Positions 3,277-18,444 of a DNA stretch of 24,466 bases are shown here, in pieces. The translations under genes were made by a program, and so were the position numbers. This DNA comes from a virus. The notes beneath the pieces are model-generated. The model made no database searches. It worked only from the letters and a program-made list of their open reading frames with translations, and was not told the origin of the DNA. How positions within the stretch are numbered: the first letter of the stretch is position 1; each line of letters begins with the position of its first letter. The stretch lies in IMG/VR virus record IMGVR_UViG_3300030109_004478, positions 1 to 24,466 of that record. The stretch is one strand, 5' to 3'.

Positions 3277-5371
3277 CGTTCCATCCCTCTCCACGCGCGA
3301 GATTAGCTTTGTATTGTTTGGAGCGGGAACCTTCTGGGACGCATGAGACTATCAATTGTTGAGCTTCCAGCCTTTGGAGCGTTTTCTTGATGGCAGCTGG
3401 AGAGCCGGCAACCAAACGATCTGCCATTAAGTCAGTTTTGGTACGTGACTCTGGGTAAGCAGTCCGTAAACGACTAAGCACCCTGCCTTGTACGGAGGAT
3501 GGAGCGGTGTCATCAGGGTCCATTTCAGGAGTGAAATCAGCGATATAGAAATCCAGGTCATCGCTTTGCCCAAGGATTAAATGCGTGCCAGAGCGTCCTG
3601 AACGGCTTTTCTCCACCTCAATCAACCGTTCATGTGGTTGCAGCTGTTGTTGCTGCTTGGAGCGCTTCTGAGGGTCGCTTTCAGCGCGTTTAAGGCTCCA
3701 TGTCTCATCCACTGCATCGCGGATAGCTGAAGTGCCTCTAAAACCACCATTCTTGTTGGCGTGATGGATGATCAAAATTGTGGTTGCAGGGAACAAATCA
3801 CCGTTGTTTTTGGTCAACCAGTAAAGGGGAGTTGCAAAGTCAGACTTGTTTTCATCAAATGCTCTTCCGCCAGAGCAACCAATCAAGGAATCAATAACAA
3901 CCAATTTTGGTTTATATGTCTCCATCAATTTAATGAACTGGGCATAACGTTGAAGCTGCCAATCAGTCTGAATAAAGGTTTGATCTGTGATCGGAAAGTC
4001 AGCTTCAATCAATTGTTCTTTCAACTGGATCAAAGGCTGATCACCGTTTAACAGCAAGACAGGGCCTTGTTGTGTTGGAACGTCAGCACCACGAACTTTG
4101 AAAGGTTTGCCGCTGACAATATGTTTTGCAAGAGCCCAAGCAGCAGTTGACTTACCATCGCCACCAGCGCCATATATAAGAATAACTGAAGGATGAGGAA
4201 GAACGTCAGGAATCAGATATTCACGTTTTTCATCCAATTCCATCAATTTTTCAACAGTGATTAATGATTGAGCTTTATCGTAAGCAATTTGATCAACAAT
4301 TAGTTTTTCAAGAGCAGTTTGGTCGCGATAACCAGCCTGGAGCGCAAGAGAATTTAGTTTGTAATTTACTTCAGCAGGATTGTCAAGTTCAAGGATTTGG
4401 AACGCACGTCGAATAACTTCTTCGTATTCAAGAGTCGATTGTCTAAATTCTTGCACTTGTTTTTCTTCTGCTGAACTGACAACTTTGGCTATGTCTTCTG
4501 AAAATCGATGACGCTTAGGGTCTTGCAGGTCAGCCAAGCGAATCAGAGTACCTAAGCCAACGCCATTGCCTTTGAAAGAATGCCAGATGTGCTCACAGGG
4601 ATTGCTGTCCTTCCATTCATCCTCAAAGTCTGGATCATCTGAGGACCAAGAAGACCAAAGCATCATTCCTGCTTCCGTAGGAAGAGCAGAATGGATAGCC
4701 ATACCAATTTTGACCCAATGATCGCGTGATCCTCTGCCTTTATTAGGAATTACGCTAAGGCAGTCTTTAATAATTTGAAAGAGTTCATCATCAGTGCGAT
4801 CAGAAAAATCTAAATCACGTTTGACAATAATTTTTGGAGGCTCACGCATTTCAGCAAGCAACCAATCTGGAACGGCAGGAATGTTATTGAGGTCGCCTTC
4901 TAATTTATATTCTCCGGGTTCAGAATTGTCACCGCCAGGGTAAGCGCCAAAAATAACACCTTGTTTCTTGGAATTCCAAAGAATTTCATAGTCGTTATTA
5001 CCTAAGCCGCGACCTTTAATGTCTGCCCAATGTTCTTCTGGGACACGAAATATAAATTTTGCAGCATTTGCACGTGTCGAAGTAACCATTGGAGCGCCTG
5101 CTAGGGAATCTCCCCAGTGCTTCATCCAACGCTTGAGGTTGTGGTCAACGTCAAGAAAAACGATGCCGTTGCCACGGATGCCAGTAAAGATTCCAACAGC
5201 CTTGAGATCAGGGTTACGTTGGAGCGCCAGAGCTACGTCAGCTGGCCCAAACTTCTGATCAAAGCTAGCTTTTAAGGGTTGCTTGCCACAGAACCCACGC
5301 GCTTCGTTTTTGGCATGAATTGGAGCGTAAACAAGCCCTTCTGGGAGGGTCTTGACGAAATCTTGTAGCAT
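3137..5371 (-). CDS. Primase-polymerase/helicase fusion, replication protein, 744 aa
   Basis: Three parts can be seen. Residues about 15-170 resemble a bifunctional primase/polymerase (AEP, Prim-Pol) domain, with the acidic motif FLDVD at about 72-76 and VTSTRANAAKFIFRV after it. Residues about 190-270 match a primase C-terminal (PriCT-like) domain, with HWVKIGMAIHSAL and LWSSWS. Residues about 385-620 form a RecA/RepA-like ATPase with Walker A GAGGDGKST at 401-409, Walker B KLVVIDSLIG near 489 and a following IIHHANK at about 534. A winged-helix-like tail follows. It should prime and unwind DNA at the phage origin. The C-terminal 45 residues look unstructured, and their coding DNA holds the GGGACA cluster. 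The gene is divergent from the SSB-like gene. Confidence 0.85.
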   Translation of the reverse strand: MLQDFVKTLPEGLVYAPIHAKNEARGFCGKQPLKASFDQKFGPADVALALQRNPDLKAVGIFTGIRGNGIVFLDVDHNLKRWMKHWGDSLAGAPMVTSTRANAAKFIFRVPEEHWADIKGRGLGNNDYEILWNSKKQGVIFGAYPGGDNSEPGEYKLEGDLNNIPAVPDWLLAEMREPPKIIVKRDLDFSDRTDDELFQIIKDCLSVIPNKGRGSRDHWVKIGMAIHSALPTEAGMMLWSSWSSDDPDFEDEWKDSNPCEHIWHSFKGNGVGLGTLIRLADLQDPKRHRFSEDIAKVVSSAEEKQVQEFRQSTLEYEEVIRRAFQILELDNPAEVNYKLNSLALQAGYRDQTALEKLIVDQIAYDKAQSLITVEKLMELDEKREYLIPDVLPHPSVILIYGAGGDGKSTAAWALAKHIVSGKPFKVRGADVPTQQGPVLLLNGDQPLIQLKEQLIEADFPITDQTFIQTDWQLQRYAQFIKLMETYKPKLVVIDSLIGCSGGRAFDENKSDFATPLYWLTKNNGDLFPATTILIIHHANKNGGFRGTSAIRDAVDETWSLKRAESDPQKRSKQQQQLQPHERLIEVEKSRSGRSGTHLILGQSDDLDFYIADFTPEMDPDDTAPSSVQGRVLSRLRTAYPESRTKTDLMADRLVAGSPAAIKKTLQRLEAQQLIVSCVPEGSRSKQYKANLARGEGWNVSPNTRKGSDGAVSGTGQEDRDMPLCPPLMDGAVEIELTEEERGQI

Positions 5372-5391
5372 CGTGTAAGATTTGAATGAGA

Positions 5392-5453
5392 GTAAACTGC
5401 AACCCGGTTCGTCCTTTGATCCCTAGGGCGAGTCGGGTCTTTTTTTAGTTTAC
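5392..5453 (+). terminator. Hairpin with T7 tract between divergent genes
   Basis: The arms ACCCG (5402-5406) and CGGGT (5434-5438) enclose further partial pairing (TTCG with CGA), and seven T residues follow on the + strand. An outer inverted repeat, GTAAACT/AGTTTAC, brackets the whole element, so it can also form a larger cruciform. As a + strand terminator it would stop transcripts running antisense out of the primase gene. Read on the - strand it sits in the primase leader. It may therefore be an operator or an RNA control element; the sequence does not decide. Confidence 0.55.
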
Positions 5454-5459
5454 CCGAAG

Positions 5460-5488
5460 TTGACAGCAGGTCAATCACGGCCTACAGT
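5460..5488 (+). promoter_or_regulatory. Near-consensus sigma70 promoter for the SSB-like operon
   Basis: A perfect -35 TTGACA is followed after exactly 17 bases by TACAGT as -10, giving a predicted start near 5495 and a leader of about 38 bases before the GTG at 5533. It is the best promoter match I saw in the window. Recognition by the host housekeeping sigma factor would give early expression of the SSB-like protein and the genes up to the terminator at 7130. Confidence 0.7.
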
Positions 5489-5532
5489 ATCAAAGCGTCA
5501 AATGAGACGCGACATTTTACCGAGACACTCAC

Positions 5533-6141
5533 GTGAAAGTTTCCGACGACTTTTTGGCAACACTTGATCCAGAAAACGAAGAACAGTCAACTGACAAGCC
5601 GTATCTTCGTCCAAACAAAATCGAGATAGGCAAGCCTGCAGTTTTTGCATTGCTTGATGAAGATCCGATGGAGTATTGGTTGGTTTGGGGCACGCCCAAG
5701 GAAGGTGGTAACAACTCACCATTTCGGTTTACTCAGAAGCCTTCTGACGAAGACATTGAGCTGGAGTTGGGGCGTGAATTTACTCGCGCACTGAACTATG
5801 ACAAGACAGGCGAAGATAAGCCATATAAATGCTTGACATGGCCGATTTACAACTGGGAAAAAAAACGTGTTGAAGTTCTTGAGATTACTCAGATTTCAAT
5901 TTCTCGCCAGTTTGTTAAATATGGTTTACACAAGACTTACAGCAAAAATCTTCTTGAATGGGATTTTCAGCTCGACAAAGGTAATGCTGGCGGCAAAACT
6001 AAGTATGAGCTAATGATTGTTCCACGCGACGAGGATGAGCATGACGACATTCAAATGGCAAAAGATTGGAAGGCTGCAATAAAAGCAGGTTTTGATATTT
6101 CTCGCATGATTGGCGGCGGAGATCCATTCAAAGAAGAATAA
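5533..6141 (+). CDS. Probable single-stranded DNA-binding protein, 202 aa
   Basis: The body is rich in beta-type segments (KIEIGKPAVFALL, YWLVWG, VEVLEITQISISRQFV, WDFQLDKGNAGGKTKYELMIVP), which fits an OB fold of the phage SSB type. It ends in the acidic, Gly- and Phe-containing tail GGGDPFKEE, reminiscent of SSB tails that recruit partners. Length suits phage SSBs of the gp2.5/gp32 kind. The start is GTG with only a weak GAGA upstream; no better in-frame start exists. Its place between primase/helicase and nuclease supports a role in replication or recombination. The family assignment rests on pattern and context, not on a decisive motif. Confidence 0.55.
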   Translation: MKVSDDFLATLDPENEEQSTDKPYLRPNKIEIGKPAVFALLDEDPMEYWLVWGTPKEGGNNSPFRFTQKPSDEDIELELGREFTRALNYDKTGEDKPYKCLTWPIYNWEKKRVEVLEITQISISRQFVKYGLHKTYSKNLLEWDFQLDKGNAGGKTKYELMIVPRDEDEHDDIQMAKDWKAAIKAGFDISRMIGGGDPFKEE

Positions 6142-6191
6142 AAACAGTGGGCATCAACGTCGGCCAGGAGGTTGAGTAAGTCCCACTGTTT
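6142..6191 (+). promoter_or_regulatory. Ten-base-pair hairpin between two early genes
   Basis: AAACAGTGGG and CCCACTGTTT pair perfectly over ten bases around a 30-base loop, directly after the SSB-like stop codon. Only three T residues follow the stem, so it is a poor intrinsic terminator. An mRNA stability or attenuation element between the two genes is more likely. The loop contains AGGAGG, an unused Shine-Dalgarno-like word with no start codon close behind it. Confidence 0.5.
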
Positions 6192-6214
6192 CTCTACTCC
6201 TTGATCGTAGAACC

Positions 6215-6724
6215 ATGACCACCACCACCACCCCGCAGCACAGAAGAAAAGGCAAAGCAAAAATTTTAAGGAAAGTCGAGCACAAAGGCTTGGCTATTGG
6301 TGAAGTTAGTTTTGACGTTTCAGATGAAAATTCTGAGGTCGGCAAAGAGGGCATGTTGTTTTTTAACAAGACAAAACAGTCTTGGATGCTTGATGCTCTT
6401 GACATTGGCGATGAAGTTGGCATTGAATTGCCATTGAGAGAAGGTCGAGGCCCAGATTTAATTACTTGGGTTTTGCCTACTTACGCTCAGCCTGAAGAAT
6501 TACAGGTTCTTGATCCAGGTCAAGCTACTCAATTTTCAGAGCAAAATGTTTTAGAAGAAAATTCTTTTGAAACGTCTAGTTCAAAAAGAGTTTCGGGCAA
6601 GCTACGCGACCCTGAAACAGAAAAAGCTTTTGAGCAATTTATGTTAGATCGTGGTCTGACACAAACAGAAGCTGTTGACGTAGCCATCAGGACAGGCTTA
6701 CGAAAAATGGGTTATGAGGCTTGA
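6215..6724 (+). CDS. Hypothetical early protein, 169 aa, with RHH-like C-terminus
   Basis: The first 95 residues look like a small beta-rich domain (ILRKVEHKGLAIGEVSFDV, MLFFNKTKQSWMLDAL, GDEVGIELPL). A Ser/Glu-rich linker follows, then a helical end, DPETEKAFEQFMLDRGLTQTEAVDVAIRTGL, which resembles the helices of RHH or other small DNA-binding domains. The N-terminus is basic and begins with a run of Thr encoded by an ACC repeat. It lies in the SSB operon, so a role in replication or its control is plausible. I do not recognise the family. Confidence 0.6.
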   Translation: MTTTTTPQHRRKGKAKILRKVEHKGLAIGEVSFDVSDENSEVGKEGMLFFNKTKQSWMLDALDIGDEVGIELPLREGRGPDLITWVLPTYAQPEELQVLDPGQATQFSEQNVLEENSFETSSSKRVSGKLRDPETEKAFEQFMLDRGLTQTEAVDVAIRTGLRKMGYEA

Positions 6725-6727
6725 ACT

Positions 6728-7120
6728 ATGCAGGATTACACAGATTCCTTGGAGTCAATCGCAAAGTCGATTAATTACGTAAGCTCCAACCTTCCTGAAA
6801 CTCCGTATTTCAATACTGAGGGCATTGAGCGTGCGCTTAGCGGTGTAGCCAACGGCTTTACTGAGCTTTCTCCCCATATTGGGGGGCAAGATTTATGTAC
6901 AAGCCTAGAAAACATTGAAGAGTATTTGGCTCAGCTGAATGAAACCATGGACAATCAAGTCAAATGGCTTCATGACATCAACATTTCTCTGCGCCTTTTG
7001 GTTCAGATAAAAGCCTGTGAACTTAGTCATTCAAATGTTTCGATGCCAAAGGCAAGCGGCACTATCACGCAGCCGTTAGACAAAGACGAAAACAGTCCTT
7101 ATTGGGCTGACGACGACTAA
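6728..7120 (+). CDS. Hypothetical early protein, 130 aa, probable coiled coil
   Basis: Translation probably starts at the ATG four bases after the previous stop, with GAGG eight bases upstream inside that gene. The chain is acidic and mostly helical, with heptad-like regions (LESIAKSINYVSSNL and LENIEEYLAQLNETM), and ends in a Pro/Asp-rich tail, SPYWADDD. It is the last gene before a strong terminator. No catalytic motif is visible and no family is recognised. Confidence 0.6.
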   Translation: MQDYTDSLESIAKSINYVSSNLPETPYFNTEGIERALSGVANGFTELSPHIGGQDLCTSLENIEEYLAQLNETMDNQVKWLHDINISLRLLVQIKACELSHSNVSMPKASGTITQPLDKDENSPYWADDD

Positions 7121-7129
7121 TTTTAAAGT

Positions 7130-7153
7130 GGGGGCCTTGCGCCCCCTTTTTTT
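7130..7153 (+). terminator. Strong intrinsic terminator of the SSB-like operon
   Basis: The stem GGGGGC/GCCCCC with the five-base loop CTTGC is followed at once by seven T residues. It closes the three-gene unit that begins at the 5460 promoter. Confidence 0.9.
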
Positions 7154-7185
7154 AGGGTTATATTAGTTTTGGGAAAGAGTACCTA

Positions 7186-8007
7186 GTGACAAACGAAGCT
7201 GATCCACAGAACATTCTTGCTTCGTTACGGCGCTGGCAACTAGAGCAAGACAACTCAGGCCCCTTCAGGGTTTACAGAGATCAAGAAGGGCTGATTTACC
7301 ATTCAGTAACGCATATCCTGAAGCACACAGCCCCTCAATCCCAGAAAGATGCCCTGGAGCGTTGGTCCAAGAGAGCAAGTAGTGATATGGAGCGTGACAT
7401 TGCCTGTGATCGCGGCACCATTGCTCATGAGCACTGTGAATATATTCTCAAAACAGCTTCAAAGCTGGCCCGTCAAAGTGCCAACAAGAAAGGAGCGTGG
7501 AAGATTTGGGATGATGGTTTGGCACGTCCTCCAAAAGCCATCACCTCCTGGGCACTTAAGAAGTCGAAAGATGGAGCGCCGAAAGTTGCATGGCCAGCCC
7601 GTGAGTACGCCAGAGGTTTATCCGACTGGTTGGTAAGTGGAACGGTAACGGCCATTCATGCGTCGGAATTCAGCGTTAGTAGTGAGGAAGGATTTGCTGG
7701 AACGGCAGATGCCTTACTTGATACGCCATTAGGTTTAACGATCTGCGATTTTAAGACCAGCAGTCGTGAAGCAGACAAGCCTGAAGCGTGGTTAAAGGAC
7801 CATCAGGACCAATTAGGTGCTTATAGCCTTGGATTGCGTGAGAGGGCTGGTATCCGAGTGGATGCTGGAGCGGTCATTATTGCCAAACCTAATGGGACCA
7901 TTCAACTGCGGATGCTTAGCGAATTGGAGATTAGGGGATGCGAAGCCCGCTGGACTGAACGCAACAACATATATAAGGAGATGTTATTGGCTGGTGAAGT
8001 CTGCTAA
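7186..8007 (+). CDS. PD-(D/E)XK nuclease, RecB/Cas4-like exonuclease, 273 aa
   Basis: The nuclease signature is complete: RGTIAHEH with His at about 81, GFAGTADALL with Asp at about 175, CDFKTS with Asp 188 and Lys 190, and QLGAYSLGL giving the QxxxY element at about 209-213. This order is typical of RecB-family and Cas4-type exonucleases used by phages for recombination, DNA repair or host DNA breakdown. The GTG start is supported by GGGAAAGAG six bases upstream. It follows the terminator closely, with a TTATAT-like -10 word at about 7158, so it probably has its own promoter. It may work with the SSB-like protein. Confidence 0.8.
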   Translation: MTNEADPQNILASLRRWQLEQDNSGPFRVYRDQEGLIYHSVTHILKHTAPQSQKDALERWSKRASSDMERDIACDRGTIAHEHCEYILKTASKLARQSANKKGAWKIWDDGLARPPKAITSWALKKSKDGAPKVAWPAREYARGLSDWLVSGTVTAIHASEFSVSSEEGFAGTADALLDTPLGLTICDFKTSSREADKPEAWLKDHQDQLGAYSLGLRERAGIRVDAGAVIIAKPNGTIQLRMLSELEIRGCEARWTERNNIYKEMLLAGEVC

Positions 8008-8192
8008 TGGAAGAAGCATTAGACCTTATATATCGCGGCAAATGCAACGTAGCTGTCAAAGCAAAAGAACTAGACATCTCAACAGAAACGCTAAAACGTC
8101 TAGTCCGTGAATATATATTGGAGCGCCCGTTAGATACGAGCGATCCAAATATTTGGAGCGGTGAAGTAGAACTAGGTTGGCCGTGGGCGTAA
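8007..8192 (+). CDS. Small helix-turn-helix protein, 61 aa
   Basis: The start codon overlaps the nuclease stop (TAATG), which indicates coupling. The segment MEEALDLIYRGKCNVAVKAKELDISTETLKRLVREYI fits a helix-turn-helix in which AVKAKELDISTETLKRLV supplies the two helices, similar to small phage or transposase HTH proteins. The C-terminus contains a Trp-rich tail, SGEVELGWPWA. A DNA-binding regulator or a partner of the nuclease is possible. Its last 21 bases overlap the end of a gene on the other strand. Confidence 0.6.
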   Translation: MEEALDLIYRGKCNVAVKAKELDISTETLKRLVREYILERPLDTSDPNIWSGEVELGWPWA

Positions 8193-8300
8193 CTTAGATT
8201 TAGCCGCTTCACGTTTCAATTGTCTGGAGGTTTTACCAGAACGTTTATCAGAATCTTTGCGAAGCTGCTCACGATCAAAGATACTTTTCTGAGTGTTCAT
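8172..8300 (-). CDS. Small basic protein, 42 aa
   Basis: The frame reads MNTQKSIFDREQLRKDSDKR followed by SGKTSRQLKREAAKSK, very polar and basic. Its ATG overlaps the stop of the upstream gene as ATGA, the same junction used by most genes of this block, and this is the main support for it. It is the last gene of the minus-strand block. Function is unknown; charge suggests nucleic-acid contact. Confidence 0.55.
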   Translation of the reverse strand: MNTQKSIFDREQLRKDSDKRSGKTSRQLKREAAKSKLRPRPT

Positions 8301-8587
8301 AAACTGTACTTGCGTTTGTAAGCGGCAGTGTGCATTTCATCCAAAGTTACAGGAGGTTCACCACCTGAATTATCCCAAAGATGATAGGGCGTTGGATCGT
8401 ACTCTAATTCATTTTCAAGTTGTGGAATCACCTCACTTTCGAGAAGATCCATCATGCCATGAGTCAATTCAACGTCCATCATGTGTCGTTTATTTTCACG
8501 CTCTACAACACCTTTAAGGATGTCCAGAGCGCGTTGAATCTTGGCAGATTCATATTCACGAATGGGACGATAGTGATAAGTCACCAC
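8297..8587 (-). CDS. Hypothetical protein, 95-96 aa
   Basis: Two tandem GTG codons are possible starts, both overlapping the stop of the gene upstream. The product is acidic and helical, with VTYHYRPIREYESAKIQRAL at the start and a Pro/Gly-rich middle (YDPTPYHLWDNSGGEPP). No family is recognised. It belongs to a run of coupled small genes between 10.1 and 8.2 kb. Confidence 0.6.
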   Translation of the reverse strand: MVTYHYRPIREYESAKIQRALDILKGVVERENKRHMMDVELTHGMMDLLESEVIPQLENELEYDPTPYHLWDNSGGEPPVTLDEMHTAAYKRKYSL

Positions 8588-8838
8588 TCCACCTCCTTTA
8601 CGAGTTGTGCAAGTCTTTTCAATGATTCAAGGCTGTCAACGTGACGTTTGCCAGCTGCATATATAGGATCTTCCATGCTTTTAGCATGTGCCATTTCCTG
8701 CTGAACCAACTTAAAACAAAATTCAATTCGCTTTAACGGTTCAGAAGCAAAATGAGCCGAAGCCTTGCTTTTTTCACCGCCAAGAATCAAACAAAGTAAT
8801 TGTGTGATGGAGCGGTTCGCTTGGTTTTTAGTGATCAT
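8581..8838 (-). CDS. Hypothetical protein, 85 aa
   Basis: The ATG forms an ATGA overlap with the stop of the gene upstream. The protein is almost fully helical, with LKRIEFCFKLVQQEMAHAKS and LESLKRLAQLVKEVEW. I see no catalytic or metal-binding motif. It is one of the coupled small genes of the block, and a small helical adaptor or inhibitor would fit. Confidence 0.6.
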   Translation of the reverse strand: MITKNQANRSITQLLCLILGGEKSKASAHFASEPLKRIEFCFKLVQQEMAHAKSMEDPIYAAGKRHVDSLESLKRLAQLVKEVEW

Positions 8839-9011
8839 TTGAGGTTGCGGTTACGTTCAGCAGCGTCAGGGATAGAAGCGTTGAGATCATCGAACTCCTG
8901 TTGTGCCAGTCGTTCACGTTCTTCAATTTCTTCATCAGAAGGAGGCCATGGATCAATAAAGTCATCAGGCATCAAATCATCATCAAAATCGCGGCGACGT
9001 TTTTTAGTCAT
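8835..9011 (-). CDS. Small highly charged protein, 58 aa
   Basis: The probable start is the ATG of MTKKRRRDFDDDLMPDDFID; the frame is open for a further 25 codons upstream, but that part overlaps the previous gene and is out of character. A basic N-terminus is followed by an acidic Asp/Pro region and a helix (EEIEERERLAQQEFDDLN). The stop overlaps the next start. Most likely a disordered or partly helical protein; no family is recognised. Confidence 0.55.
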   Translation of the reverse strand: MTKKRRRDFDDDLMPDDFIDPWPPSDEEIEERERLAQQEFDDLNASIPDAAERNRNLK

Positions 9012-9039
9012 GGTGTCGGAATGGTTTGAGATTTTTGTC

Positions 9040-9396
9040 TCAGTATTTTTGAGACTGGTTGCCGCCCATGCGGTGAAGGCGTTCAAAGGCTCTAGAAAGC
9101 TGCATTAGCTCACTCACGTTGTGTTGAGCGGATGCTTCCATCCAAGCTTGCTCAAGGTCTCTCAGCATTGCGTCACGCTGTTCAAGCATTGGTGTTGGAG
9201 CGGTGTCAACGTCCAACTCCATGTTTTCACTATCCATTTGAGTGCTTGCTAAGGCAACGTCACGGAAGCTAGTAGCGCGACTGATACTGAATAACCGTTC
9301 AACCCTTAAAGCAACGGCTGAAGGCTGATAGCCAAGGCTCAGGAGGCGCTTAGCCTCCCGAATGTGTTGGCCTTTGATTTCATTGGAGCGTTTCAC
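9040..9396 (-). CDS. Putative HTH DNA-binding protein, 118 aa
   Basis: The N-terminal 50 residues (KGQHIREAKRLLSLGYQPSA, then VALRVERLFSISRATSFRDV) look like a helix-turn-helix of the resolvase or small-terminase sort, with GYQPSAVALRV as the first helix and turn. A variable acidic linker and a helical C-terminus follow (LEQAWMEASAQHNVSELMQL). The start is GTG in a GTGA overlap with the stop of the gene upstream. It could be a regulator. A second small-terminase-like protein is a weaker option, given the HTH plus helical layout. Confidence 0.5.
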   Translation of the reverse strand: MKRSNEIKGQHIREAKRLLSLGYQPSAVALRVERLFSISRATSFRDVALASTQMDSENMELDVDTAPTPMLEQRDAMLRDLEQAWMEASAQHNVSELMQLSRAFERLHRMGGNQSQKY

Positions 9397-9647
9397 GACA
9401 AAGGCGTGATAAATAACACTTGATTGTCTTGGGGAAAATCAACGCGAATTGTTTCGCCAAGATCACAAGTAGTGTGCTCAAGATGGGTTAAACCCATAAT
9501 TTGTTTAGCCTTGCGGACAATCCAAGGACCTGAATACTTTGATGGAATCATCACATTTTCACGGATAACCCATGAATAGTTTGCTTGACCTCCGAAAGTG
9601 TCAGTGTGCTCAAGCTGCCAGCGAAAACATGGAATACCTTGTTTCAT
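9393..9647 (-). CDS. Conserved-looking hypothetical protein, 84 aa
   Basis: GAGG lies seven bases before the ATG and the start overlaps the previous stop. The sequence has many aromatic and His residues near the N-terminus (CFRWQLEHTDTFGGQANYSW), then WVIRENVMIPSKY and an ending of beta type, VLFITPLS. It appears to be a small folded domain. I do not recognise a function. Confidence 0.6.
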   Translation of the reverse strand: MKQGIPCFRWQLEHTDTFGGQANYSWVIRENVMIPSKYSGPWIVRKAKQIMGLTHLEHTTCDLGETIRVDFPQDNQVLFITPLS

Positions 9648-9886
9648 GACTGAACCTCAGCATTATCAAGCTTGCGGATGTGATCCGTCAAAACTTGCAT
9701 GAACCGTTCTTGATTGGAGCGGTCACAATAAGGCAGATACTTTGCGATAGCATCATTCAATGCTTTTGTTCCGGTAAAAATTGAAACGGAACAATCAGAG
9801 CCATCATTAATGGTGATCAAACCACTAATCAAGTCAATTTTGGTTTGACCTTCTACGTGGAAATGGTTGTTGGTAGTTTGTTTCAT
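9644..9886 (-). CDS. Hypothetical protein, 80 aa, similar in its C-terminal half to the protein at 11713-11961
   Basis: The second half carries KALNDAIAKYL, then LTDHIRKLDNAEVQS. The protein encoded 2 kb away has GALSDAVDSYL and LTDLNRKEDIKAEAKS at matching places, and both have a Gly/Asp/Ser-rich turn with beta strands before it. The match is too ordered to dismiss, so these two may be diverged copies. No Shine-Dalgarno is seen before the ATG, which lies four bases after the previous stop. Function unknown. Confidence 0.6.
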   Translation of the reverse strand: MKQTTNNHFHVEGQTKIDLISGLITINDGSDCSVSIFTGTKALNDAIAKYLPYCDRSNQERFMQVLTDHIRKLDNAEVQS

Positions 9887-9890
9887 AGTT

Positions 9891-10118
9891 TTAGAAAGGG
9901 TTTGTCCAGTTGTAGGCTTGGTGATTACTCACGATGCCATCCTTGTTCAAAGCATCGACAAAATTGTTGAATGATTCGCGCTTAGCGATGCTGTCGTTTT
10001 TGTAGTTTGGTTGTTCTGACAAGATGCCTTGCCATAAAATCTTGAATTCTTCCAAGACTTGTTTTTTAGTCGTTCGCACTGGTTTAAGTGGTTGTTGGTT
10101 TGGAGCGGAAACGGTCAA
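9891..10118 (-). CDS. Hypothetical protein with TTG start, first gene of its block, 75 aa
   Basis: No ATG or GTG is available near the start; TTG is preceded five bases upstream by a strong GAGGAG, which decides the start. The N-terminus is Pro/Thr/Lys-rich (SAPNQQPLKPVRTTKKQVLE), then a helical domain follows (FKILWQGILSEQPNYK). As the first gene after the divergent gap at 10.12-10.16 kb, it is probably closest to the promoter of the eight-gene block. The family is not recognised. Confidence 0.65.
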   Translation of the reverse strand: MTVSAPNQQPLKPVRTTKKQVLEEFKILWQGILSEQPNYKNDSIAKRESFNNFVDALNKDGIVSNHQAYNWTNPF

Positions 10119-10163
10119 CCCGTCTCCTCAATCCATTATTACACGATTAAAAGGGTTTTGGCC

Positions 10164-10373
10164 ATGGCTACCATGAAAACATCCCAACAACGCAGCAAAA
10201 TGCCTGACGTTTGGATAGCACCGGATGAACTCGAATTACTCTTAGAGTCCATCCATGCTTACGCTCACTCAAACGATGGAAAGCGCCGCTCAGGTCGCTT
10301 AACTTTCCTGCGTGAGAAAATTGTGCAAGTGAAACTCAACGGTTCAGCCTTGCGTGTCTACCCTTCTCGATAA
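10164..10373 (+). CDS. Small hypothetical protein, 69 aa, lone plus-strand gene
   Basis: The frame is open further upstream, but the ATG of MATMKTSQQRSKMPD with AAGGG upstream is the natural start. The remainder is basic and helical (LELLLESIHAYAHSNDGKRR, LTFLREKIVQVKL). It is divergent from the gene at 9.9-10.1 kb and convergent with the next block, isolated between two minus-strand operons. That placement is typical of a local regulator, but no DNA-binding motif is clear. Confidence 0.55.
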   Translation: MATMKTSQQRSKMPDVWIAPDELELLLESIHAYAHSNDGKRRSGRLTFLREKIVQVKLNGSALRVYPSR

Positions 10374-10386
10374 TTGGAACGGACAT

Positions 10387-10412
10387 AAAAAAAGCCCCCT
10401 ATACGGGAGGCT
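10387..10412 (-). terminator. Intrinsic terminator of the second minus-strand block
   Basis: Read on the - strand, AGCC-T-CCC pairs with GGGGGCT around a short loop, and seven T residues follow. The stop codon of the 53-aa gene lies in the hairpin itself. It also separates this block from the convergent gene at 10.2-10.4 kb. Confidence 0.85.
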
Positions 10413-10560
10413 CATCTTGAAAGTCTTCTACCTCGTAAGGCTTAGGAAAACTTCCACCATTAGCTTGAAACTCCTCCCATAAATAGCAGGCATGTTTCAA
10501 GCCGTCCGCTGTGCTTGGATCGTAACCGTTAAGCCGTGCAAGTTCTTCAAAGGTGATCAT
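10399..10560 (-). CDS. Small acidic protein, 53 aa
   Basis: MITFEELARLNGYDPSTADG is followed by LKHACYLWEEFQANGG and an acidic, Pro-rich end, VEDFQDEPPV. The start forms an ATGA overlap with the stop of the gene upstream, and the stop is inside the terminator. Codon structure and coupling support a real gene. It may be a small HTH-like or host-factor-binding protein; no family is recognised. Confidence 0.6.
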   Translation of the reverse strand: MITFEELARLNGYDPSTADGLKHACYLWEEFQANGGSFPKPYEVEDFQDEPPV

Positions 10561-10865
10561 TCAAAAAACCTGCCAACGACAACAAAATTACAATCCTCTG
10601 TCAGTTTAACTAAAATCCCGGACCATACCGAGTCCGAAACGTAACCATCCCAACCGTTAAGGTTTGGATCGCTAACGTCCGTTACTCGCATAAAATCCTG
10701 CAAGTGGTAAACCTGCCCACAATAGGCAAAGAATCCGAAGTTGGATTCAATGTCTTGAGGATTCATCCAATCGTAGTCCTTACGGATCTCTGACTGAATG
10801 TTTTCGTTAAAATCCCCCAGGTGCATCAGTGGCCTTGGAACGTTATTTGTTTTGATGGTAAACAT
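10557..10865 (-). CDS. Hypothetical protein, 102 aa
   Basis: The domain has a dense set of aromatic residues: MFTIKTNNVPRPLMHLGDF, then FGFFAYCGQVYHLQDFM, GWDGYVSDSVWSGILVKL and VVVGRFFE. The Gly-Trp-Asp-Gly-Tyr and VVGR elements look like signatures of a conserved phage or plasmid family, but I cannot name a function. The ATG is only six bases after a hairpin and short T tract and has no Shine-Dalgarno site. Confidence 0.65.
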   Translation of the reverse strand: MFTIKTNNVPRPLMHLGDFNENIQSEIRKDYDWMNPQDIESNFGFFAYCGQVYHLQDFMRVTDVSDPNLNGWDGYVSDSVWSGILVKLTEDCNFVVVGRFFE

Positions 10866-10871
10866 AAGAAA

Positions 10872-10894
10872 ATCCCGGCGGTTAAGCCGGGGAT
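10872..10894 (-). terminator. Hairpin with short T tract just before a start codon
   Basis: On the - strand ATCCCCGGC and GCCGGGAT pair around six bases, followed by TTTTCTT and then the ATG of the next gene. The T tract is weak for a full terminator. An attenuator or an RNA-stability hairpin controlling the downstream gene is a good alternative. Confidence 0.55.
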
Positions 10895-10907
10895 AATTGG
10901 AACGGAA

Positions 10908-11267
10908 CTAACAGCACGCCAACGCGGCTACGTTGTAAACTTGATCAATCGGGAAGTTGTAACCTTCAAGATCTGATTCCCTGTAAAAATACAAAGAACA
11001 ACCTCTAGGATCTCCCTGATGATAAATCTTGCCACCGCATTGAGCGGCTAACGTTTGAGCTTCTTTAAGGTATTTTGCCTCACGATTGGCAATAACTGGA
11101 CCTTTAACAGGACAGCCAAACTGATCGGATCTATACCTTCTCGGAATTGTGCAATCTTCATCATCCCATTGAATGAATCCGTTGCATTCATCCTCTGCCC
11201 ACTTGTTTAAATGCCGTTCAATCTGGCAAAGCCTTTGGAACGTTGCTGATGGTAGTTTGTTTTGCAT
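10908..11267 (-). CDS. Conserved-looking hypothetical protein, 119 aa
   Basis: MQNKLPSATFQRLCQIERHL leads to a Trp/Asp/Glu-rich middle (DECNGFIQWDDEDC) and a striking GGKIYHQGDPRGCSLYFYR segment, followed by a C-terminus with a Cys pair. The QGDPRG turn looks like a conserved phage-family signature without a known activity. The ATG lies three bases after the T tract of a terminator and there is no Shine-Dalgarno site, so translation may be leaderless or depend on read-through. Confidence 0.65.
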   Translation of the reverse strand: MQNKLPSATFQRLCQIERHLNKWAEDECNGFIQWDDEDCTIPRRYRSDQFGCPVKGPVIANREAKYLKEAQTLAAQCGGKIYHQGDPRGCSLYFYRESDLEGYNFPIDQVYNVAALACC

Positions 11268-11270
11268 GGT

Positions 11271-11298
11271 AAAAAAAGACCCCAGATTATTCTGGGGT
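11271..11298 (-). terminator. Strong intrinsic terminator inside the second minus-strand block
   Basis: ACCCCAGA and TCTGGGGT pair perfectly over eight bases around a four-base loop. Seven T residues follow on the - strand, four on the + strand. The loop contains the stop codon of the 47-aa gene. The next gene starts three bases beyond the T tract. Confidence 0.85.
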
Positions 11299-11430
11299 TT
11301 TAAGAATAAACTGTTTTAAAGGATTACACTTTTTAAGATAACGCAGCGTTTTGACTGCGTCATCTGGGGAAATGTCCCCCAGATGTAACACTTTCTCATC
11401 TCGTGATTCTGTGATGCAGATGATGATCAT
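11287..11430 (-). CDS. Small protein, 47 aa
   Basis: MIIICITESRDEKVLHLGDI is followed by SPDDAVKTLRYLKKCNP and LKQFILKTPE. It looks like a beta-alpha mini-domain. GGAGG lies ten bases before the ATG, and the start overlaps the stop of the gene upstream as ATGA. Its stop sits in a terminator loop, and a perfect nine-base-pair inverted repeat lies within its coding sequence (11361-11385). Confidence 0.6.
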   Translation of the reverse strand: MIIICITESRDEKVLHLGDISPDDAVKTLRYLKKCNPLKQFILKTPE

Positions 11431-11591
11431 TGCGTCACATCCTCCAATTTATGAGGATACTCCGGGCGGATCCTTGAAGCATAAAAGAACAGCCTTTCAG
11501 CGTCTTTTTTGCTTCTCGGATGTCCGTAAGTTATCCAGCCAAGACCCCCAGACTGGGGGATCCCGCGCCATACTTGAACGAGATAAGTCAT
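11427..11591 (-). CDS. Small basic protein, 54 aa
   Basis: The frame MTYLVQVWRGIPQSGGLGWI continues through TYGHPRSKKDAERLFFYASR to a Pro-rich end. It begins with TGATG overlapping the previous stop and ends overlapping the next ATG. The YASR and DAERLF helix with an initial beta strand suggests a small folded domain. A seven-base perfect inverted repeat, CCCCCAG/CTGGGGG, is embedded in it. Family unknown. Confidence 0.6.
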   Translation of the reverse strand: MTYLVQVWRGIPQSGGLGWITYGHPRSKKDAERLFFYASRIRPEYPHKLEDVTQ

Positions 11592-11716
11592 CAGCGAATC
11601 ACCCGGTTGTAAACCTGGGTTCCACTATGACCCTGGAACGTTGCGCTGTTAACAGCAACGACACAAAAAGCACCGGCTGCCACGTAGGCAGCCAGCACGG
11701 ACAGAAACGATTTCAT
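11591..11716 (-). CDS. Small membrane or secreted protein, 41 aa
   Basis: MKSFLSVLAAYVAAGAFCVV is a clear hydrophobic segment behind a Lys, followed by AVNSATFQGHSG and a short polar end. It could be a single-pass membrane protein or a signal peptide with a short mature part. It overlaps both neighbours (ATGA upstream, TGATG downstream), so the whole set is translationally coupled. Small membrane proteins in early operons often interfere with host envelope functions or with superinfection; that is only a suggestion here. Confidence 0.6.
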   Translation of the reverse strand: MKSFLSVLAAYVAAGAFCVVAVNSATFQGHSGTQVYNRVIR

Positions 11717-11961
11717 GATTTAGCTTCAGCTTTGATGTCTTCCTTGCGGTTTAGATCGGTCAGCATTGTGATAATGCGGTCCCGATCCCAACGTGTCAAA
11801 CGATCGGTGAGATAAGAATCCACCGCGTCAGACAATGCCCCGTAAGGTAGCTCAAGTGTCACGCTGTCTCCAGAGCTTTGGCACGTTGCAAGAATGCGAC
11901 CGCCGCTGATCTGAATGGCACCGCTGTTGATGCTGTGAACCGTTTGCACTTTGGTCTCCAT
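11713..11961 (-). CDS. Hypothetical protein, 82 aa, similar to the protein at 9644-9886
   Basis: The first half, METKVQTVHSINSGAIQISG then SSGDSVTLELPYG, is of beta type. The helical second half, ALSDAVDSYL and DRDRIITMLTDLNRKEDIKA, lines up with the protein encoded 2 kb downstream. It is the first gene of the second minus-strand block and follows a long structured non-coding stretch. Its function is unknown; the pair suggests a duplicated early-gene family in this phage. Confidence 0.6.
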   Translation of the reverse strand: METKVQTVHSINSGAIQISGGRILATCQSSGDSVTLELPYGALSDAVDSYLTDRLTRWDRDRIITMLTDLNRKEDIKAEAKS

Positions 11962-12139
11962 TGGTTCCGTTAGTTAGGGTTAGCTTTTTAGGTTTGCTGA
12001 GAGCTGCCCTTGTGGGACGTGAACCGCTGTGAACAGTTGTCAGCTAAGCAAGGGCTAACCCGTGCTGCTGGCTGTTTGAGGCGAATCGCTCTCAGACTTT
12101 ATTCAGTTGTCAAGGTGCGAGCTATGCTCACTTTGTATT

Positions 12140-12159
12140 GTATCACAACTAAGTGATAC
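12140..12159. promoter_or_regulatory. Perfect seven-base inverted repeat, operator-like
   Basis: GTATCAC and GTGATAC are separated by AACTAA. The 20-base dyad has the size of a dimeric repressor site and lies in the non-coding region between the early block and the terminase genes. No copy was noticed elsewhere in the window. Confidence 0.5.
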
Positions 12160-12176
12160 CTAGCAAGTGGTGGAGA

Positions 12177-12242
12177 ATGTTAAGTTCTCTTCCTTTCTTT
12201 GCTGTTTTAATTATAGCTTATCGAGTGCTACAGAGCAAGTAA
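12177..12242 (+). CDS. Possible 21-aa hydrophobic peptide
   Basis: The frame MLSSLPFFAVLIIAYRVLQSK would form one short membrane helix with polar ends. A purine-rich stretch with GGTGG lies just upstream, and the operator-like dyad is 17 bases before the start. Length is too short for confidence; a chance frame is quite possible. If real, it resembles small membrane-acting peptides of phages or type I toxins. Confidence 0.25.
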   Translation: MLSSLPFFAVLIIAYRVLQSK

Positions 12243-12359
12243 TATCACTACAATCTGACACGTCATTTGTTACAAGGGGGGTGGTGTAGCAAATGCTGCA
12301 CGCCTACAGCAAGGGCCGGGTACCCTGCACATATATCCACTAAACAGTAATCGTGTACT

Positions 12360-12382
12360 AAAAAAGCCCCCTTAGTGGGGGC
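12360..12382 (-). terminator. Intrinsic terminator of the small terminase gene
   Basis: On the - strand GCCCCC and GGGGGC pair around a five-base loop, followed by six T residues. It lies 27 bases beyond the stop of the gene it ends. Confidence 0.88.
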
Positions 12383-12409
12383 AGGGGTTGAATTTGTTGG
12401 AGCGTTAGA

Positions 12410-12784
12410 TCAGTCGTCTTTTTTTTCGATAGAGATTTTAAGTTCAGGTGCTTGGATATTGACGGTTTCAACGGACTCACCAATCACTTTGCCAATGGAG
12501 TCAAGAACCTGGCTAGCGGTTTGGAGCTGTCCTTTTTTAAGGGCTTGGTGAAAGAGTTTAGTACGCATGTGCTGAAGGCGTGCGAGCATATTTTCGCGGT
12601 CAGCTTGCCAGTCTTCATCAACGATCTTTTTAACTTCAGCCCAATCACGCCAAGCAGTTTGAACAGAGACCTGTTCTTTTTCAGCGTGATCGTAAACAAG
12701 CGCTGTAGAGGACAAGCCATCTAATTGGCGCTTATAGAGGCGTCGAACGCGCCCTACTTTGGATTCTGTCTGTTCTGGCTGCAT
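12410..12784 (-). CDS. terS: Probable terminase small subunit, 124 aa
   Basis: The N-terminal part (VGRVRRLYKRQLDGLSSTALV, then YDHAEKEQVSVQTAWRDW) fits a helix-turn-helix of the small-terminase type. The C-terminal part is a helical pair (NMLARLQHMRTKLFHQALKK and LQTASQVLDSIGKVIGES) of the sort that builds the terminase ring. AAGG nine bases before the ATG supports this start; a TTG three codons earlier is less likely. TerS binds the packaging site and feeds DNA to the large subunit. Here it is divergent from terL and has its own terminator, which is unusual. The family call rests on layout and on its position beside terL. Confidence 0.6.
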   Translation of the reverse strand: MQPEQTESKVGRVRRLYKRQLDGLSSTALVYDHAEKEQVSVQTAWRDWAEVKKIVDEDWQADRENMLARLQHMRTKLFHQALKKGQLQTASQVLDSIGKVIGESVETVNIQAPELKISIEKKDD

Positions 12785-12880
12785 CAAATTCAACCTTGAT
12801 TACTCGAATAATAACTTGCTGTGGAGCGTTGTGAACGGTTTAGGGGGTAGGGGGTTGAAAACCTGTGTAATGTAATAGGC

Positions 12881-14134
12881 ATGAGCATAAAAACAGAGCC
12901 TATTAACCTGAGATGGGCGCAGGGGCAGGTTTATTCAAGCGAAAACCGCTTCCGCGTATTGGTAGCAGGCCGCAGATTTGGCAAGTCGTACTTATCTTGC
13001 GTTGAATTGGTGCGTGGAGCGATTGAGAAGCCAGGGGAGACATTTTTTTATTGTGCTCCGACGTATCGAATGGCAAAAGACATAGCGTGGCGAGCATTAA
13101 AGAAGCTGGTTCCAAAGGTATGGATCAGGAGTAAGAACGAGACGGACTTACGAATCGAGCTAATCAACGGATCAACGATTGAATTAAAGGGAACAGAGAA
13201 CGCTATGGCGTTAAGGGGCCGGAGTTTAAGCGGTGTAGTGCTGGATGAAGCAGCATTTATGGATGCAGAGGTATGGTTTGAGGTTATACGACCTGCTTTA
13301 GCGGATAAGGAAGGCTGGGCATTATTTATTTCGACACCAGATGGGACGGCCAGCTGGTTTTATGACTTGTGGTGTTATGTACCAGAGGATGAGACGGGAG
13401 ATTGGCAGCGATGGTGTTATACGACGATTGAAGGCGGCAACGTTAGTAAGCATGAGGTCGAAGCAGCGCGTGCCCAACTTGACACTCGAACATTCCGGCA
13501 AGAATTTGAGGCCAGCTTTGAGAATCTGACTGGTTTAGTGGCGGTCAGTTTTTCAGACGACAATATTTCAACAGAAGCCCGCGACATCTCAATTCAACCA
13601 TTGCTATTGGGCGTTGACTTTAACGTTGATCCAATGAGCGGTATTTGCGCGGTAAAAGACGGCGAAACGCTTTATGTCTTTGATGAGATCATGTTGACAG
13701 GTGGAGCGACCACATGGGACTTTGCGGACGAGGTTACGCGAAGGTATGGAGTAGATCGCAGGGTTATTGCGTGTCCTGACCCTACAGGTGGAGCGCGAAA
13801 GACAAGTGGTGTTGGCGTAACGGACCATGCAATTTTGCGTCGTAGTGGATTTACGGTTCAGAGTCCGCGAGCACCATGGAAGATAAGGGACAAGATTACG
13901 GCAGTAAATACAGGATTAATGGATGCTGCTGGAGCACGAAGAGTCAAGATTCATCCAAGGTGTAAGGAGCTGATTAAATCGCTTCGGACATTGACGTATG
14001 CGCCGGGTACTGGGCTACCAAATAAGAATTTAGGAGTGGACCATGCGTTTGACGCATTTGGGTATTTGGTGCTGCAGCAATTTAACCTTGCAAAACCCGA
14101 AACATTAGGTACAACTTCCTATCGGCTTTACTAG
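12881..14134 (+). CDS. terL: Terminase large subunit, packaging ATPase and nuclease, 417 aa
   Basis: The ATPase domain shows Walker A AGRRFGKS at about 29-36, Walker B GVVLDEAAF at about 118-126 and the coupling motif STPDG at about 151. The RNase H-like nuclease domain has its acidic residues in GVDFNVD (about 246), CPDPTG (about 299) and GVDHAFDAF (about 387-391). All catalytic positions appear intact. Length is near the family's usual 400-550. It packages DNA into the prohead together with TerS and the portal. A G-rich tandem (TAGGGGG twice) lies about 30 bases upstream, and no strong Shine-Dalgarno is visible. It opens the plus-strand packaging and structural run. Confidence 0.93.
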   Translation: MSIKTEPINLRWAQGQVYSSENRFRVLVAGRRFGKSYLSCVELVRGAIEKPGETFFYCAPTYRMAKDIAWRALKKLVPKVWIRSKNETDLRIELINGSTIELKGTENAMALRGRSLSGVVLDEAAFMDAEVWFEVIRPALADKEGWALFISTPDGTASWFYDLWCYVPEDETGDWQRWCYTTIEGGNVSKHEVEAARAQLDTRTFRQEFEASFENLTGLVAVSFSDDNISTEARDISIQPLLLGVDFNVDPMSGICAVKDGETLYVFDEIMLTGGATTWDFADEVTRRYGVDRRVIACPDPTGGARKTSGVGVTDHAILRRSGFTVQSPRAPWKIRDKITAVNTGLMDAAGARRVKIHPRCKELIKSLRTLTYAPGTGLPNKNLGVDHAFDAFGYLVLQQFNLAKPETLGTTSYRLY

Positions 14135-14270
14135 AATGAGGCAGCAAACCTTGATAAGGGATGCGACAGAGTCTCTTGCAGCGGATCAGGAGTGAGGGAT
14201 GCGGGTGCGTGAGCCGGTTCTAGTCCGCAATCATTGGAGCGATTAGACTGTAGACACCTATTATTTTGAG

Positions 14271-14369
14271 ATGGCCGACAAAAAGAGCAATGGGATGAAG
14301 CGATGCGAGGGCTATATGAAGGCTGTGAGAAAGAGCAAGAAGAAACAGGCTAGTAAGAAGAAAAAGTAG
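14271..14369 (+). CDS. Lys-rich mini-protein, 32 aa
   Basis: MADKKSNGMKRCEGYMKAVR is followed by a tail of Lys, Ser, Gln and Ala. More than a third of the residues are Lys or Arg. The gene starts 20 bases after a TTAGACTG element. Small basic proteins between terminase and portal could bind DNA in the capsid or neutralise its charge, which is a guess from composition and place. Confidence 0.55.
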   Translation: MADKKSNGMKRCEGYMKAVRKSKKKQASKKKK

Positions 14370-14403
14370 GAGTTAGACTGGGGTCATCGTTGCGCTTTGC
14401 GTC

Positions 14404-14493
14404 ATGCCCAAAGGCCCTGGAACGTACGGTACGCAAAAAGGCCGTCCACCTAAGAAGAAGAAGGGCATGAAGAAGGGCAGCAAAAAGATGTGA
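14404..14493 (+). CDS. Lys-rich mini-protein, 29 aa
   Basis: MPKGPGTYGTQKGRPPKKKK and then GMKKGSKKM. The PKGPGTYGTQKGRPP start has the look of an AT-hook-like or conserved phage mini-protein. It follows the second TTAGACTG element and precedes the third. It is short, but the repeated upstream element and conserved-looking sequence support it. Confidence 0.55.
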   Translation: MPKGPGTYGTQKGRPPKKKKGMKKGSKKM

Positions 14494-14524
14494 GAATTAG
14501 ACTGTACCCAACGCATTTTTGATT

Positions 14525-14704
14525 ATGGCACCTAAAAAACGCGGACTTTACGCAAACATTGCGGCAAAGAAGAAGCGCATCAAGGCGGGTTCAGGCGAAA
14601 AGATGCGTAAAGCAGGAGATCCTGGCGCACCAACCGCCAAAAACTTCAAAGATGCTGCCAAAACAGCGAAAAAACGTAAACCAAAGGGTAAAGGTAAAAA
14701 ATAA
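14525..14704 (+). CDS. Small basic phage protein, 59 aa
   Basis: The ATG of MAPKKRGLYANIAAKKKRIK is chosen over an upstream TTG because the TTAGACTG spacing then matches the other two mini-genes. The segment KRIKAGSGEKMRKAGDPGAP followed by TAKNFKDAAKTAKK reads like a known kind of basic phage protein found near portal genes. Its stop overlaps the next start (TAATG). A DNA-binding or virion-internal role is likely but not shown. Confidence 0.7.
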   Translation: MAPKKRGLYANIAAKKKRIKAGSGEKMRKAGDPGAPTAKNFKDAAKTAKKRKPKGKGKK

Positions 14705-14988
14705 TGGCCAAAATCAAACGAGGCGGGCACGTTTTCGACGGTTACAACAAACCAATTCGTACTGCTGGTCATTCCAGTGGTAAATCTCATGCTGTTGTGA
14801 TCAAAGAGAACGGCAAAGATCGTTTAATACGTTTTGGTCAACAGGGAGCAAGTACAGCGGGTAAACCAAAGGCAGGTGAAAGCCAAGCGATGAAGGATAA
14901 GCGAGCTGCTTTCAAGAAGCGGCACGCAAAAAACATTGCTAAGGGCAAAACCAGTGCCGCATATTGGGCTAACAAAGTAAAGTGGTGA
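14704..14988 (+). CDS. Basic phage protein, 94 aa, upstream of the portal gene
   Basis: It begins MAKIKRGGHVFDGYNKPIRT, has a beta-type core (SHAVVIKENGKDRLIRFGQQG) and ends in the conserved-looking KKRHAKNIAKGKTSAAYWA NKVKW region. Proteins with this ending are common beside phage structural genes, though their role is not known to me. The start overlaps the previous stop and the portal start follows directly, so the four basic genes and the portal are probably co-expressed. Confidence 0.7.
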   Translation: MAKIKRGGHVFDGYNKPIRTAGHSSGKSHAVVIKENGKDRLIRFGQQGASTAGKPKAGESQAMKDKRAAFKKRHAKNIAKGKTSAAYWANKVKW

Positions 14989-14989
14989 C

Positions 14990-16441
14990 ATGACTTACTC
15001 CGTTCCAGGGCTCGTTCGGACCCATTTGGTCAGTAGCTCCTATATGGGGAGTGTTGACAGTCCATTTGTCCGTACACGGGCAGTAATCGACCAGATGAAA
15101 GGCTGGGAGATTATGAAAGCAGTGGTATCTGGAACGGAATACCTTCGAGAGAACAGCGAGACTTTCTTGCCGCTGGAGCCACGTGAGGACTATTCAGCAT
15201 ATTTGGCGCGTGTAAACCGTGCTGTTTTTACGCCTTATACGCAGCGTTTAATCCGAGCAGCAGCAGGACTTATTCTTCGTAAACCAATCAGTGTTGTAGG
15301 TGATCCGTACTGGACCGAAATTTTTAACAAGGATGTTGACGGTTGCGGTTCTGATTTGGATGAGTACGCACGTCGATTAGTCACTTGTGCTTTGACCTAT
15401 GGCCATTCACATATTCTTGTTGATTTTCCCGCTCCATCAAATGCGAAAAGTTTGGCGGAAGAGCGTGCTCTTAATCGCAGACCATATTGGATTGAGGTTG
15501 ATCCAACCAATGTTTATGGCTGGCGTTTAGATCGGGAAGCAAATTATGGCAGTCTTACGCAAGTTCGTATTGGCGAAAAAGCCGTTGTAGCCGATGGAGA
15601 GTTCGGAGAAAAAGTTTATGACCAAGTCCGTGTCATTGAGTCAGGTCGTTATCGCGTCTTTAGACAAGAGCAAAAGGACCAAGAAATGGAAGGGCCATTC
15701 CCATATCCCGCTTCATTCGATCAATCCGACGCTACAGCGGAGTACGAGTTGGTTGAGTCGGGTGATTTTTCACTTGGGCAAATTCCGCTGGTAACGATTT
15801 ATGCCGATAAAAAGGACACAATGACCAGCCGCCCGCCGTTGCTGGACATAGCGCATTTAAATCTGGCGCACTTCCAACGACAAGCTGACCTTATACATAG
15901 CTTGCATATTGCCAGCCAACCAATGCTGGTATTAGAGGGCTGGGACGATCAGACGAAGGATATGGCGATTAGCGTGAATTATGCGATGGCAACTCAACCG
16001 GGCAATAAGGTTTATTACGTGGAGCCTGCATCAAGCGCATTTGAAGCGCAGACATCAGAAATCCAGGAGTTACAGCAGCAAATGGCGACGTTAGGCATCA
16101 GTACGTTGAGCCAACAGAAATTTGTTGCTGAATCTGCAGATGCCCGCAGGCTGGATCGTATTGATACGAACTCAATGTTGTCGATGGTATCGATGGATCT
16201 GGAGTCAGGTTTGCAGAAGTCTTACAACCTTGCTGCTAATTATTTGGGCATTGAACCGCCTGAGGTCAAGATTAGTCGTGACTTTGACTTGCAGCGTCTG
16301 ATCGGGCAGGACATTACTGCAATGGGTCAGCTATTTCAGGATCAAATCATTGATCGCGAAGAGTTCCGCGACATGCTGGTACAAGGCGAGATTTTGCCCA
16401 TGTCGGCAGAAGCAGAATCAAGCGGTACAGTAGAAGAGTAA
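14990..16441 (+). CDS. Portal protein, DUF4055-like, 483 aa
   Basis: The protein has the length and layout of a phage portal: an alpha-rich beginning (RAVIDQMKGWEIMKAVVSG, then LPLEPREDYSAYLARVNRAV), the crown-to-wing beginning RLIRAAAGLILRKP typical of DUF4055 portals, and a long helical stem and crown region after the AHLNLAHFQRQADLIHSLHI stretch. It should form the dodecameric ring through which terminase packages DNA. It sits at the expected place after terL. No truncation or odd feature is seen. Confidence 0.85.
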   Translation: MTYSVPGLVRTHLVSSSYMGSVDSPFVRTRAVIDQMKGWEIMKAVVSGTEYLRENSETFLPLEPREDYSAYLARVNRAVFTPYTQRLIRAAAGLILRKPISVVGDPYWTEIFNKDVDGCGSDLDEYARRLVTCALTYGHSHILVDFPAPSNAKSLAEERALNRRPYWIEVDPTNVYGWRLDREANYGSLTQVRIGEKAVVADGEFGEKVYDQVRVIESGRYRVFRQEQKDQEMEGPFPYPASFDQSDATAEYELVESGDFSLGQIPLVTIYADKKDTMTSRPPLLDIAHLNLAHFQRQADLIHSLHIASQPMLVLEGWDDQTKDMAISVNYAMATQPGNKVYYVEPASSAFEAQTSEIQELQQQMATLGISTLSQQKFVAESADARRLDRIDTNSMLSMVSMDLESGLQKSYNLAANYLGIEPPEVKISRDFDLQRLIGQDITAMGQLFQDQIIDREEFRDMLVQGEILPMSAEAESSGTVEE

Positions 16442-16455
16442 TAGCTTTTGTCCCC

Positions 16456-16575
16456 ATGGGAATGCGCTTCGAGGAGATCAATCCACCCAAAAAAGATGAA
16501 TGCCCAATGCCCGAACCTAAAAAGACAACTAAACAAGCAAAAAGTAGTAAGGTAGAAAAGTCAACTAACTCCTAA
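16456..16575 (+). CDS. Small Lys/Pro-rich protein, 39 aa
   Basis: MGMRFEEINPPKKDECPMPE leads into a Lys/Thr/Ser-rich tail. It lies between the portal and scaffold genes, starts 15 bases after the portal stop and ends two bases before the scaffold start. It looks disordered. Short genes like this between portal and scaffold are frequent in phages, but I cannot name a function. Confidence 0.55.
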   Translation: MGMRFEEINPPKKDECPMPEPKKTTKQAKSSKVEKSTNS

Positions 16576-16577
16576 TA

Positions 16578-18427: not shown

Positions 18428-18444
18428 TCCCTGATCAGAGCAAA

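Follow-up and report, generated by a model that had tools for sequence, protein, structure and literature searches.

A polar word that tracks a primase/helicase module and is a probable marker of replication start and direction in a family of uncultured phages

Priming sites are usually too short for selection on them to show. The Chi and KOPS words of E. coli are short, over-represented and polar, with orientations diverging from the origin, and are read by the host RecBCD or FtsK. The Prim-Pol of phage NrS-1 reads the template 5'-TTTGGTTA-3' and starts at the first upstream base, GTG also being usable (PMC8718748). RSF1010 has RepA and RepB' together with the priming sites ssiA and ssiB (PMC4538821), and pRN1 has a putative origin just downstream of its Prim-Pol gene (PMC4234260). 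Many asymmetric sites dispersed over a phage genome are also found as the L5 stoperators (PMC9283540).

The DNA analysed here (the window, a virus contig of 24,466 bases from IMG/VR) carries siphovirus-type head and tail genes (terminase, DUF4055 portal, capsid, tape measure). It also bears a polar word, TGGARCG, which in this virus and its relatives probably shows the place where DNA replication starts and the direction that it takes. In the window phage, as in NrS-1, a Prim-Pol is joined to a helix-bundle domain and a helicase, and a long TTGG-containing motif, here a candidate template motif, lies at most 150 bp from the 3' end of the primase gene; unlike the window, NrS-1 has one motif copy and no array (its genome holds TTTGGTTA once, 147 bp beyond the primase gene), the two lack significant sequence similarity and the window phage helicase is RepA-like. 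RSF1010 offers a parallel in that a hexameric RepA-type helicase works with an AEP-type primase specific for certain template sites, but it has two sites as against dozens here, and the window phage has one polypeptide. The putative origin of pRN1 is likewise at the 3' end of a Prim-Pol/helicase gene (ORF904), but pRN1 relies on a stem-loop, its primase uses GTG and no polar word is present.

Excess, polarity and form of the word

An exact script count of TGGARCG over the whole window gave 55 copies on the + strand and 17 on the - strand, with +:- ratios of 7:9 in 1-3282, 36:0 in 3283-15000 and 12:8 in 15001-24466. The original prediction had put these by hand count at about 54 and 17 for the window and about 35:0 for 3283-15000, with 7:9 to the left and 12:8 to the right, and its description of an over-represented word lying on one strand for nearly 12 kb is borne out. 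TGGAGCG tops all the 7-mers of the window (39 copies on the + strand against 2.6 expected under an order-2 model), and a same-strand run of 36 has P = 5e-5 when the labels of the 72 copies are shuffled. The polar array, which codon usage does not explain, extends over 3319..14424 with 36 copies, all +, and the closest - copies, at 3277 and 15001, are both just beyond the limits of the 3283-15000 stretch. Since only about 1.4-2 copies are expected on the - strand of this core, their absence is not strong avoidance, and the excess on the + strand is the striking feature.

Codon usage, composition or chance has a negligible probability as the source of the pattern. LER codons do slightly raise TGGAGCG in + genes, but synonymous-codon shuffling of the confident core genes gave 2.8 expected + copies of TGGARCG against 23 observed, and the minus-strand primase gene had 11 observed against 0.8 expected. 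The excess of + copies is thus present in plus-strand and minus-strand genes both, as the original prediction had maintained in setting codon usage aside, and the order-2 model, the label shuffling and the ranking of 7-mers by polarity (below) also refute this explanation. Type III restriction strand bias was rejected as well, as it cannot account for the excess. Repressor sites that block transcription in the manner of stoperators would be asymmetric and dispersed, as they are in the cluster A mycobacteriophages (PMC9283540); however, stoperators are 13-mers that follow transcription, whereas the window word is independent of gene direction, with + sites in genes of both directions, and its polarity flips within one gene, which makes such sites very unlikely.

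Beyond the core, in 1-3282 and at 15-24 kb, TGGARCG is over-represented on both strands. The right edge of the pure + zone (15001..18575) runs from the portal to the post-capsid genes, and its first - copies, at 15001, 15430, 16687, 17897 and 18569, are interspersed with + copies. The head genes of the window (15001-18600) and of its relatives hold few TGGARCG copies, and the - copies in them sit at partly conserved places, such as about 2 kb past the terL start. A pattern search for paired sites within the window's own IMG/VR record found none.

The full motif is Y-TGG-NN-CG, in which NN is mostly AA or AG; it takes the form TGGARCG in the window phage and broadens to TGGNNCG in the relatives, with bases 1-3, 6 and 7 strict and bases 4 and 5 favouring A-R. 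The base at -1 is a pyrimidine in 83% of the + sites, compared with 58% at TGGAR without CG after it (P 5e-31), and in 55% of the - copies. This preference fits purine-first primers, as a consistency test short of proof.

A divergent switch inside the primase gene

The polarity of the word switches at 3179..3325, in the 3' end of the primase gene (3137..5371, minus strand). The window has - copies at 3179, 3242 and 3277 and + copies from 3319 on, so that the flip falls between 3277 and 3319. An inverted pair, CGTTCCA-AGGCCTGC-TGGAGCG, is located to the left of the switch (2965..2986). No marked AT-rich stretch was found near the flip, and the folding of the switch region is not unusual (z -1.6). 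A primase search yielded 80 loci, and on alignment at the primase stop codon the - sites were found at x<150 and the + sites at x>150, with the site density peaking at the flip and the - sites almost absent over several hundred bases past it. The flip is clear in all but a few of 74 non-redundant loci, the exceptions being weak, and is also seen in most loci with a primase merely 36-50% identical. The idea that polarity switches just once, at a packaging site beyond terL, was rejected, as the sharp conserved flip sits in the primase gene instead.

When 11 long genomes, four of which have end overlaps of 55-127 bases as in circular assemblies, were pooled clockwise from the flip, + copies outnumbered - copies round nearly the whole circle. 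The reverse held mainly over roughly the final 2 kb ahead of the flip, and the head genes had few copies of either kind. Marking of replication direction, one of the roles offered in the original prediction, is therefore the suggestion that best fits the conserved divergent flip and the one-way polarity round the genomes.

On the precedents of NrS-1 and pRN1, Y-TGG-NN-CG is taken here as a priming or initiation site and the flip as the candidate replication origin, from which forks would run mainly rightward from about 3.3 kb. With the origin placed within the primase gene, from 3277 to 3319, and by analogy with the NrS-1 polymerase, primer synthesis would begin at the base immediately 5' of the site and proceed toward the 5' end of the template. 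The + sites on the right of this origin would then be where lagging-strand synthesis of the rightward fork starts, and the - sites in the 1-2 kb to its left would prime the first strand, which would run rightward through the origin. Enrichment on both strands in 1-3282 and at 15-24 kb is not predicted by a one-way fork and counts against it. Alternatively, the helicase, or a module protein that has escaped notice, may bind the sites as double strands, for instance as an initiator, with a role in the loading or pausing of forks or in segregation and not in priming. Inverted pairs near the flip and the conserved cluster within the primase gene would agree with such a role, but initiator iterons cluster at origins and are not spread in a single orientation over a 41 kb genome, and it is considered improbable.

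Distribution in relatives and probable hosts

Relatives were collected with the terminase large subunit (terL, 12881..14134, + strand) as the query. In the 80 terminase-selected loci, TGGAGCG (541 observed against 84 expected) and TGGAACG (387 against 98) lead all 7-mers in over-representation, and the TGGARCG words lie mostly on the terminase strand (766:162). Retention of the motif in relatives had been named as a check in the original prediction: at x = 400-8000 in the 74 non-redundant relatives, TGGAGCG (421:10) and TGGAACG (325:17, unique contexts in both cases) rank first and second among all 7-mers in polarity beyond composition, and in the family the word is about ten times too common.

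The array is carried by the loci that have a module of primase, a 202-aa protein and an exonuclease. Seven low-GC loci that share terL and have no module within reach contain 0-2 copies, as against 15-20 in module loci of equal GC, and at GC 0.32-0.36 the site density is 2.0-2.5 per kb with the module and 0-0.4 per kb without it. The word's link with the module and with the polarity of replication is thus well supported. The absence of the word from phages that have the terminase and portal in common but not the module speaks against packaging or uptake signals, also suggested originally; a pac/cos packaging signal was rejected on the same ground. The module-less low-GC phages (L056, L078, L069 and others) have a different replication module. 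Upstream of terL in these and other low-GC loci, CATTCAT is strongly polar (93:3 pooled); as a polar word of the module-less group it was rejected, since it looks like the start-codon context (ATGAATG) of small minus-strand genes that overlap.

Among named phages the closest are cyanophages, whose sequences are all distant save for the single-cell record AG-345-A17. The hosts are probably picocyanobacteria, since relatives of the capsid gene sit in a Prochlorococcus single-cell genome and a cyanobacterial bin; those in two other bins probably reflect misbinning. A 41 kb contig of a Prochlorococcus single-cell assembly (L102, QCMG01000013.1) carries the head module of this phage without the word, and so connects the sister group to a host.

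Marine Synechococcus and Prochlorococcus encode RecBCD (PMC5101192), and the word could accordingly be a host Chi site that shields phage DNA from this enzyme, as the original prediction had proposed for a RecBCD/AddAB-like nuclease; the probable hosts and the Chi-like polarity would suit it. However, 400 kb samples from each of four host-family picocyanobacterial chromosomes showed no consistent strand skew or leading-strand skew of TGGARCG, with TGGAGCG about 2x over order-2 and TGGAACG, TGGATCG and TGGCACG neutral or depleted. Neither the module-less sister phages nor the cultured cyanophages KBS-S-2A, S-H1, S-CBS4, MED4-184 and S-2L have the array. In contrast to the Chi and KOPS of E. coli, then, the word is tied to a phage module and shows no polarity in the chromosomes of the host family. 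This makes a host Chi site quite unlikely, with a small probability kept because the sampled chromosomes may not be those of the true host strain. One 20 kb chunk of a Cyanobium-like chromosome (L193), with 0:25 copies, mimics a polar TGGARCG array and was rejected, as the copies belong to a giant, repetitive adhesin-like gene (11849-19805) that contains near-identical 615-base repeats.

The replication module and candidate readers

The primase/helicase (744 aa) comprises a Prim-Pol-like N terminus, a PriCT_2 domain and a RepA-like AAA_25 helicase, as judged from Pfam, alignment and fold matches. PriCT_2 and AAA_25 were detected in 46/46 aligned primases and PF09250 Prim-Pol in 21/46 (best E 2.4e-7), the window protein itself being without a match to the latter. 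In motif A, D74-x-D76, both aspartates are invariant in the primase alignment. The second AEP motif reads GAYPGG where SxH is usual, with Y144 invariant as judged by eye, and its usual His appears to be replaced by Tyr. The mean pLDDT of the predicted model is 73.7, and therefore only the helicase part was used; it matches the fold of RSF1010 RepA (E 4.6e-9). Homology of the primase to the NrS-1 polymerase is not significant (BLASTP E 0.37; hhalign probability 0.1%), nor is there significant sequence or profile similarity between the S-2L primase and the window-family primases, and the protein is therefore described as working like these enzymes and not as a member of their family.

The small, acidic 202-aa protein (5533..6141, +) accompanies the primase in 85/85 loci with enough flank. 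Its fold search gave weak OB-fold matches, none significant, and it is possibly a putative ssDNA-binding protein. The PD-(D/E)XK exonuclease (7186..8007, +; phrog_298 E 2.9e-27; PF12705) always accompanies the array where the flank permits, and in named phages just weak matches to cyanophage exonucleases were found. Family A DNA polymerase is absent from 8/8 relatives examined, in one of which the large ORFs beyond the module either have structural roles or lack a known function.

It is about an even call that Y-TGG-NN-CG is read by the replication module of the phage, most likely as a priming signal of the Prim-Pol/PriCT_2/RepA-like helicase, with the origin in the 3' end of the primase gene. 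The tracking of the module, the flip, the whole-circle polarity, the -1 pyrimidine, the precedents and the want of a family A polymerase argue for priming, with the Prim-Pol primase as the presumed reader; the single NrS-1 site without an array, the missing similarity to NrS-1 and S-2L and the Tyr in place of His argue against it, as do the ordinary folding and the want of a marked AT-rich stretch at the flip, and the co-inheritance of the exonuclease and the 202-aa protein, either of which could be the reader. The fuller proposal, that this primase/helicase has shaped its genome through a 7-8 nt code, Y-TGG-NN-CG, enriched about ten-fold on the lagging-strand template all round the circle, with the origin in the primase gene, falls a little short of even. 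If true, origin, fork direction and the template specificity of the primase could be read from sequence alone in a large family of uncultured cyanophages, by way of a long and polar word that spans the genome and belongs to one primase family. The word also allows a Prim-Pol/RepA-like fusion of abundant marine cyanophages to be put to a clear test in vitro.

Constant co-inheritance with the primase makes the exonuclease the chief rival reader, in line with the suggestion of the original prediction that the word may guide recombination by the nuclease encoded at 7.2 kb. The word would then be a phage-encoded Chi-like site to which the exonuclease, with the 202-aa protein, responds during end resection, steering broken forks or packaging cuts towards recombination. 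The constant company of exonuclease and array where the flank allows and the shared geometry of E. coli Chi, diverging from the origin, speak for it, and an end generated close to terL would be faced by the + sites on the left of that gene. However, the flip and the density peak lie in the primase gene, away from the exonuclease and terL, the -1 pyrimidine has no obvious role, and single-subunit phage exonucleases are not known to read Chi; a site of this kind is rather unlikely.

Adjoining terL is a conserved gene for a 127-aa protein (12410..12793, minus strand), a small terminase by position only, which is on the strand opposite terL in most relatives and on the same strand in some.
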